The notes under the pieces: model-generated
The model's database searches: none
Seen by the model: only the letters and a program-made list of their open reading frames with translations
What the model was told of the DNA's origin: nothing
Position numbers and translations under genes: made by a program
Part shown: positions 2,203 through 36,470 of the stretch, piece by piece
Layout of the letters: each line of letters opens with the position of its first letter
Numbering within the stretch: position 1 is the first letter of the stretch
Source: Pseudomonadota bacterium
Lineage (GTDB): Bacteria; Myxococcota_A; Bradymonadia; UBA4248
Length of the DNA: 36,470 bases
Assembly (NCBI GenBank): GCA_017464085.1
Contig: JAFUEE010000069.1
Location: forward strand, 1-36,470
Reading direction: 5' to 3'

Positions 2203-2238
2203 AGCCTGGCTATGCGCTTTCCGCGCATACGCCCGGCC
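2203..2238 (+). repeat. TAT/ATAC palindromic element 1
   Basis: Inner stem TATGCGC/GCGCATA with loop TTTCC, one unpaired C at 2230, then a partly paired GC-rich outer stem (AGCCTGGC/GCCCGGCC). It directly follows the tRNA terminator. Confidence 0.8.
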
Positions 2239-2239
2239 T

Positions 2240-2270
2240 GCCGGCCTATCGCTCCCGCGATATGGCCGCC
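2240..2270 (+). repeat. TAT/ATAC palindromic element 2
   Basis: Inner stem TATCGC/GCGATA with loop TCCC. The unpaired base is T (2263) instead of the usual C. The outer stem GGCC/GGCC is flanked by partly complementary bases. Confidence 0.75.
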
Positions 2271-2283
2271 GATGTATTTTTAA

Positions 2284-2325
2284 GACCGCGCTATTTCCCG
2301 GCCCTGCCGGAAAATACGCCCGGTC
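2284..2325 (+). repeat. TAT/ATAC palindromic element 3
   Basis: Outer arms GACCGCGC/GCCCGGTC have one mismatch. Inner arms TATTTCCCGGC/GCCGGAAAATA have one mismatch and loop CCT. The unpaired C is at 2317. Confidence 0.88.
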
Positions 2326-2326
2326 C

Positions 2327-2359
2327 GGCCGGCCTATCGCTCCCGCGATACGCCCGGCC
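2327..2359 (+). repeat. TAT/ATAC palindromic element 4
   Basis: Outer arms GGCCGGCC/GCCCGGCC have one mismatch. Inner TATCGC/GCGATA with loop TCCC matches the inner hairpin of element 2. The unpaired C is at 2351. Confidence 0.88.
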
Positions 2360-3439: not shown

Positions 3440-3477
3440 GGCCGCGCGTATGATGCCAGCGGCATCATAGCCCGGCC
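3440..3477 (-). repeat. TAT/ATAC palindromic element 5
   Basis: Read on the minus strand: outer GGCCGGGC/GCGCGGCC with one mismatch, inner TATGATGCC/GGCATCATA with a 3-nt loop, then the unpaired C (plus-strand G at 3448). It lies between the divergent kinase gene and the gene at 3610. Confidence 0.88.
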
Positions 3478-3479
3478 CG

Positions 3480-3516
3480 GGAAGCGTATGGACGCCCGCA
3501 GGCGGCCATAGCTTCC
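3480..3516 (-). repeat. TAT/ATAC palindromic element 6
   Basis: Outer arms GGAAGC/GCTTCC are perfect. The inner TATGG/CCATA pair extends into an imperfect GC-rich stem. The unpaired base on the minus strand is C (plus-strand G at 3486). It lies 2 nt from element 5. Confidence 0.85.
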
Positions 3517-12760: not shown

Positions 12761-12786
12761 CCGCGCCGTATCAGAGATAGGCGCGG
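12761..12786 (-). repeat. TAT/ATAC palindromic element 7
   Basis: On the minus strand: CCGCGCC, TATC, TCT loop, GATA, unpaired C, GGCGCGG. Inner and outer stems are both perfect, which makes this the clearest single example of the family. A second 8-bp inverted repeat (GTCCGTGC/GCACGGAC, 12788-12815) follows at once. Apart from the possible nuclease promoter, the rest of the 12557-12961 gap shows nothing further. Confidence 0.92.
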
Positions 12787-14121: not shown

Positions 14122-14154
14122 CACGGCCTATGCGCGCCGCGCATACGGCCTGTG
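14122..14154 (+). repeat. TAT/ATAC palindromic element 8
   Basis: Inner TATGCGC/GCGCATA with loop GCC, unpaired C at 14146, outer CACGGCC/GGCCTGTG with one extra base. It lies between the convergent FIST and pyruvate kinase genes. Confidence 0.9.
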
Positions 14155-14155
14155 A

Positions 14156-14183
14156 GCGGCGCTATGCTGCGCATACGCGCCGC
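14156..14183 (+). repeat. TAT/ATAC palindromic element 9
   Basis: Outer GCGGCGC/GCGCCGC and inner TATGC/GCATA are perfect, with loop TGC and unpaired C at 14176. It follows element 8 by 1 nt and ends 12 nt before the pyruvate kinase stop. Confidence 0.9.
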
Positions 14184-24226: not shown

Positions 24227-24256
24227 GCCTATTGCGGCCTTTGGCCGCAATACGGC
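24227..24256 (+). repeat. TAT/ATAC palindromic element 10
   Basis: Inner TATTGCGGCC/GGCCGCAATA is a perfect 10-bp stem with loop TTT, unpaired C at 24253, and a 3-bp outer stem. It begins 4 nt after the stop codon of the membrane protein gene. Confidence 0.88.
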
Positions 24257-24261
24257 TTGCG

Positions 24262-24287
24262 GCCTGGGCTATTGCATACGCCCAGGC
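24262..24287 (+). repeat. TAT/ATAC palindromic element 11
   Basis: Outer GCCTGGGC/GCCCAGGC is perfect over 8 bp; the inner part is reduced to TAT-TGC-ATA; unpaired C at 24279. Confidence 0.9.
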
Positions 24288-24331: not shown

Positions 24332-24357
24332 GGTGCGGCGTATGAAATAGCCGCCCC
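24332..24357 (-). repeat. TAT/ATAC palindromic element 12
   Basis: On the minus strand: GGGGCGGC, TAT, TTC, ATA, C, GCCGCACC. The outer stem has one mismatch and the inner part is minimal, as in element 11. Confidence 0.85.
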
Positions 24358-24360
24358 CTC

Positions 24361-24392
24361 AAGCGCGTATCCGGCCGCGCCGGATAGCGCGT
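24361..24392 (-). repeat. TAT/ATAC palindromic element 13
   Basis: On the minus strand: GCGC, TATCCGGC, GCG loop, GCCGGATA, unpaired C, GCGC. The inner 8 bp are perfect. A further perfect palindrome CCGGCGC/GCGCCGG (24395-24413) without the TAT core follows. Confidence 0.88.
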
Positions 24393-36454: not shown

Positions 36455-36470
36455 GCCGCCTATTGTGCGC
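36455..36470 (+). repeat. Left half of a possible TAT/ATAC palindromic element
   Basis: GCCGCC then TATTGTGCGC at the very right edge of the window fits the 5' half of the dispersed family; the rest lies outside. Just before it is another GC hairpin (TGCGGGG/CCCCGCA, 36428-36446). Confidence 0.45.

Follow-up and report, generated by a model that had tools for sequence, protein, structure and literature searches.

Several described systems read or build short DNA hairpins of the kind that concern us here. The REP-associated transposase TnpA-REP recognizes its target as a single strand, and this recognition depends on a bulge (PMC8266576). Within REPs, head-to-tail pairs are rare (PMC3733652). 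A G-C stem that ends in a GNA or GNNA loop gives a DNA mini-hairpin of extraordinary stability (PMC4686876), and the hairpins of Streptomyces telomeres bear GCA or CTTG loops (PMC7205883).

Here we analyse a family of bulged palindromes in a stretch of 36,470 nucleotides (the window, which is the whole of contig C20) and in the genome to which it belongs. Dispersed palindromes have long been disputed as RNA elements, transposon remnants or DNA-structure sites, and for one family this dispute becomes testable. The family is a natural experiment in which hundreds of stem sequences have been tried around one fixed core; hence, the sequence itself indicates the folding strand and its chemistry. 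What is new is that the G-strand, the complement of the strand that reads C-TAT..ATA-C-G, appears to be the one that folds. We put the probability at roughly 0.6 that the elements are REP-like, family-specific intergenic sites whose G-strand, when single-stranded, folds into a very stable DNA hairpin that is read by a putative protein.

Elements of the window and their invariant core

All 13 elements of the initial annotation lie where it had placed them and have the plan it gave them, including an unpaired base that is C in twelve copies and T in one (ATA-T, in the + copy 2240..2270). We orient each copy by the strand that reads C-TAT..ATA-C-G (the C-strand); the inferred folding strand, the G-strand, lies opposite. 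The copy with the bulged T belongs to a cluster of four in the same orientation, together with 2203..2238, 2284..2325, which has a long inner stem, and 2327..2359 (all +). Upstream of this cluster, a 106-base tandem duplication holds two tRNA genes (1986-2165; equal Rfam scores, anticodon read as GTT). The second tRNA is followed by a terminator-like hairpin (2168-2195), whose end forms the T-run just 5' of 2203..2238. A tandem array with units of 66, 135 and 152 bases occupies positions 1-522 at the contig end.

The next two elements, 3440..3477 in a divergent gap and its tandem partner 3480..3516, are on the - strand, as is 12761..12786 with its short inner hairpin. On the + strand, 14122..14154 adjoins the stop codon of pyruvate kinase and is followed by its tandem partner 14156..14183. 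Farther along, 24227..24256 and 24262..24287 (both +, the second with a minimal inner loop) are followed by 24332..24357, which makes an inverted "+-" arrangement with the + copies, and by 24361..24392 (both -). A half copy at 36455..36470 (+), cut off where the contig stops at position 36470, is plausible.

The invariant core is C-TAT-[any hairpin]-ATA-(C)-G, and the remainder varies with pairing kept. The pair immediately outside TAT/ATA is C-G in 200 of 209 copies, and the base 3' of TAT is almost never A. We scanned 903 kb of the window genome (the window and further stretches from the same genome) for all hairpins with exactly one bulged base, without assuming any letters, and used Markov-shuffled sequence as the control. 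The bulge context ATA-C occurred 168 times, against 0 times in shuffled sequence, and the runner-up context occurred 8 times. An excess over shuffled sequence had been set as the test beforehand, and the family turns out to be larger than first claimed. When the plan was fixed and the trinucleotide varied, TAT/ATA gave 204 copies and 19 others gave 0-5; when the bulge base was varied, C gave 204 copies, T 9, G 4, A 1 and no bulge 15. The proposal that TAT, ATA and the unpaired base stay fixed while the stems vary is borne out against all control cores.

A refined finder recovered 367 copies in 1.21 Mb (about 300 per Mb), compared with 2-4 for three control cores. Nearly all copies are distinct, with 326 different sequences among the 367. 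Across the whole genome, the pattern CTATBN{4,18}VATACG matches 1702 times and its reversed control 413 times, which implies about 1,300 copies genome-wide. A chance origin of the family is excluded; we hold the family, the core and the asymmetry of the strands with high confidence. Searches of the openly licensed literature found no named family with this exact core, as the initial annotation had supposed. Only the two tRNAs reach the Rfam gathering score in the window, and nothing does in the element-bearing stretches L008 and L036.

The probable folding strand

On the C-strand, wobble pairs (G.T/T.G, 15) are rarer than their A.C/C.A counterparts (31), a result that prompted the strand analysis. 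Stem mismatches on this strand are mostly pyrimidine-pyrimidine, beyond the reach of single transitions. The G-strand, on which the core reads C-(G)-TAT..ATA-G, looks different. Its 119 single mismatches include 70 G.A, 24 G.G and 13 G.T, and 24 of 45 double mismatches are 5'GA/5'GA, the classical sheared pair. More than half of its triloops are GNA (171 of 329), compared with 10 of the mirror form TNC. Tetraloops are GNNA in 77 of 151 cases; just 29 are GNRA and one is UNCG. The loop-closing pair is C-G in 413 of 480 cases, and a CTTG loop closed by G-C occurs seven times. The bias persists when identical inner sequences are counted once (60 vs 9 for triloops, 43 vs 2 for tetraloops). Other hairpins of the genome have no comparable strand bias (37 GA vs 27 TC triloops). 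In one relative, G005, the GNA bias is weaker (8 of 25 triloops). Folding energies point the same way: with DNA parameters they favour the G-strand in 394 of the 516 cases that could be decided, with RNA parameters in 332 of 489. Loops and mismatches of these kinds mark very stable DNA mini-hairpins, and the G-strand looks like the folding strand.

GNA or GNNA loops are found in 43% of the copies with a G-strand sense to neighbouring genes and in 46% of the copies with an antisense one, and G.A mismatches number 20 and 18, respectively. Because loop and mismatch biases are equal in both orientations, selection does not track transcription, and its most likely target is single-stranded DNA rather than RNA. 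That single-stranded DNA is the working form is the simplest reading, and we hold it with good confidence; antisense transcription of many copies, if present, would weaken the argument for DNA over RNA. RNA processing, which the initial annotation had offered as one possible function, is contradicted as the main one by the same equality. Its suggestion of protein-binding sites survives in altered form, since the target would then be folded single-stranded DNA.

Genomic setting, relatives and the turnover of stems

The elements are intergenic in 171 of 177 cases. The remaining six fall inside genes as crudely called, none of them more than 60 bp from one end of its gene, so the statement that elements never lie inside a gene holds in our sample. 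Because gene calling was crude and 28% of the genome was sampled, the following orientation statistics are approximate. Of the convergent gaps, 28 of 56 hold a cluster; for tandem gaps the count is 89 of 264 and for divergent ones 18 of 59. Doublets or triplets in the same orientation make up 105 of 254 clusters. Neighbouring clusters within 300 bases are arranged "+-" 14 times and "-+" twice. In a first listing the "+-" pairs were mostly in tandem gaps; hence, this polarity seems to be a property of the element itself. Within 40 bases upstream on the C-strand a T-run (111) is more frequent than an A-run (26), independently of gene direction (27 vs 6 in antisense clusters). Orientation is mixed in six contigs, none of which has a visible strand bias, and this does not support a link between orientation and replication direction.

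Among 379 genomes of the phylum, the core pattern occurs in all eight members of the window's GTDB family (three genera; 43 to 344 sites each), and the other 371 have 0 to 3 sites each, which is the control level. A covariance model made from 38 copies, with only 150 candidates scored per genome, gave 21-144 matches in each of the eight family genomes and no match in the sister family (G008). The relatives, found by a scan with pyruvate kinase, are gut-derived MAGs (buffalo, cattle and other sources) that carry the labels Proteobacteria or Myxococcales, so that the phylum is probably Myxococcota or one near it. The restriction to one family could reflect any lineage-specific process. Viral carriers of the element were considered and rejected: 103 of 2.9 million viral contigs matched the pattern, each one listed with a single match, and we take these matches as chance.

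Positions are conserved between two species. G004, the most complete of the eight genomes (99%, about 255 pattern sites), has a pyruvate kinase 93% identical to that of the window genome (G000), and genes of the two are about 70-80% identical at the nucleotide level. Of 43 mapped copies in all, 42 are matched by one at the corresponding site (22 of 23 mappable copies from G004 to G000 and 20 of 20 in the other direction, with the refined finder), although the two directions count largely identical places. The counterparts all have the same orientation and often other stems. A first ortholog mapping with a stricter finder matched 18 of 21. The window pair 14122-14183 belongs to these position-conserved copies. 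The G004 ortholog of 14122..14154 (L126 1442-1469) shares the outer stem GGCC, and its inner stem is longer; that of 14156..14183 (L126 1475-1505) keeps the outer stem GCGGCGC around a different inner hairpin.

Outer pairs in 28 ortholog pairs were unchanged in 89 cases, changed on both sides with pairing kept in 37, and altered on one side or broken in 38. When 38 copies of equal length were aligned, both partners had changed in 9 of 13 pairs, with the four core pairs invariant; the covariation score is 0.577 compared with 0.120 ± 0.017 in shuffled alignments, a score that is inflated because the finder demands paired stems. Together with the 37 two-sided ortholog changes, this upholds the earlier view that selection acts on shape. 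Inner hairpins are often replaced as a whole and can have any length within fixed frames.

Such replacement is also seen in a composite subfamily, CCCCCTGCGCGGCTAT-[any hairpin]-ATACGCCGCTACCCCC; the window genome has 45 of its copies, six of the seven other family genomes have 3-18 and G003 has none. The composite repeat is built from a GGGGG/CCCCC hairpin, TGC, an element with a fixed GCGGC outer stem and TACCCCCTC; its inner hairpin is fully variable (for example, L138 10650-10760 and L137 19560-19650, among the 45 places in the genome). Another repeated palindrome, GACGTTCCACGGAACGTC, is interleaved with elements in L145 (8700-8900) and also in L139 and L024.

A putative reader, rival explanations and known systems

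We propose that the G-strand, once single-stranded, would fold into C-(bulged G)-TAT-[variable inner stem]-ATA-G inside a GC-rich outer stem. The inner stem would be free to vary and would often be capped by GNA or GNNA. A putative structure-specific DNA-binding or DNA-cutting protein may then read the bulged G together with the TAT/ATA step whenever replication, repair or a neighbouring transcription bubble exposes the strand, much as a bulge or extrahelical base is read by TnpA-REP or by the TnpA of IS200/IS605. As no partner protein was found, we only infer the recognition. Copies would be old and mostly sedentary yet copyable, as the 45 framed copies of the composite subfamily suggest, and their inner hairpins would be exchanged or rebuilt wholesale. 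A narrower version, which we hold tentatively and consider somewhat less probable than its negation, is that these are vertically inherited, chromosome-wide single-stranded DNA hairpin sites, read via C-(G)-TAT/ATA-G by a putative non-Y1 protein and sedentary rather than mobile. Our confidence in any identity of the reader or in its cellular purpose is low. The family points to an undescribed reader of DNA hairpins, a putative protein of this uncultured gut lineage.

One could also argue that the elements are classical REPs or REPINs, mobilised by a RAYT (TnpA-REP) or by an IS200/IS605 Y1 transposase. The elements resemble REPs in size, in copy number, in lying between genes and in favouring convergent gaps over divergent ones (PMC3733652), bulge-dependent recognition of a single strand has a precedent in TnpA-REP (PMC8266576), and Y1_Tnp genes are present in six of the eight element-bearing genomes. 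Elements were found at 5 of the 15 Y1 loci examined and at none of the other 10. However, Y1_Tnp had no match in G004, in spite of its completeness, or in G005, almost all copies differ from one another, and head-to-tail pairs, rare in REPs, are here the commonest arrangement. The GTAG/CGTC foot tag is absent, and the 10 flank positions on either side hold no conserved tag. In the window genome, one IS200-like locus, L085, has an element pair, whereas the locus of the sole RAYT-like gene, L087, has none and is surrounded by a different repeat, contrary to the expectation that a RAYT gene would be flanked by the element. We consider mobilisation by these enzymes unlikely, and an origin from RAYT or IS200 is unsupported by the gene distribution. 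Of the three mechanisms initially suggested, REP-like behaviour fits best, and the link to RAYT is the part that lacks support. At L087 (166-1821; window-genome contig 16) the RAYT-like Y1 domain ends a 551-aa frame that also carries an in-frame run of AGGCGTCTCGCCTGCG-type repeats; together they may represent another REP-like family, unrelated to the elements, and its transposase.

A slightly less probable reading takes the elements as RNA elements of 3' untranslated regions, either intrinsic terminators or stabilisers of mRNA 3' ends. C-strand-sense copies lie close behind stop codons (median 49 nt), and in tandem gaps a T-run follows the hairpin within 15 nt in 24 of 58 C-strand-sense clusters but in only 3 of 51 antisense clusters. 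Since this T-run is common only in the sense clusters, some copies behind same-strand genes probably also serve as intrinsic terminators, as a secondary use. As a general account, RNA function is at odds with the nearly even numbers of sense and antisense clusters (58 and 51), with DNA-type loops and G.A pairs that are as strong in either orientation to genes, with the rarity of G.T, with GNRA not favoured over GNYA, and with the near absence of UNCG; some copies also sit behind a separate ordinary terminator (2168-2195). Least probable is a mutational by-product, in which template switching keeps palindromes perfect and no function is selected. It would account for whole stems being replaced with few G.T intermediates and for fixed frames that enclose inner hairpins of whatever length. 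Template switching would be expected to erase the bulge and the G.A mismatches, though, and instead the bulge, TAT/ATA and the C-G pair are the sole invariant parts, at positions conserved despite 70-80% nucleotide identity.

The reading as hairpin sites in single-stranded DNA, which we prefer, places the elements beside several known systems. Integron attC sites, too, are single DNA strands that fold, with extrahelical bases and a terminal hairpin that varies (PMC6393395), but their core letters differ and no cassette arrays were noticed here; no integron integrase (TIGR02249) scored above the curated cut-off in nine genomes, and we reject attC identity. Streptomyces telomeres share adjacent runs of stems, GCA or CTTG caps, sheared G.A pairs and single-stranded DNA (PMC7205883), whereas our elements are scattered through the chromosome and have an invariant bulged core. 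The end hairpins of IS200/IS605, read by the Y1 enzyme TnpA, also have one unpaired base and are read on one strand only; the elements, in contrast, are not at transposon ends, and two element-rich genomes are without detectable Y1 genes. Closest are REP/BIME sequences, which are also intergenic palindromes of 20-40 bases, number in the hundreds, are scarce in divergent gaps and, with TnpA-REP, likewise present a single-strand hairpin whose strand is defined by an irregularity in the stem. The elements differ from REPs in their preference for head-to-tail pairs. Hence, the element acts like a REP hairpin, and we do not file it as a REP.
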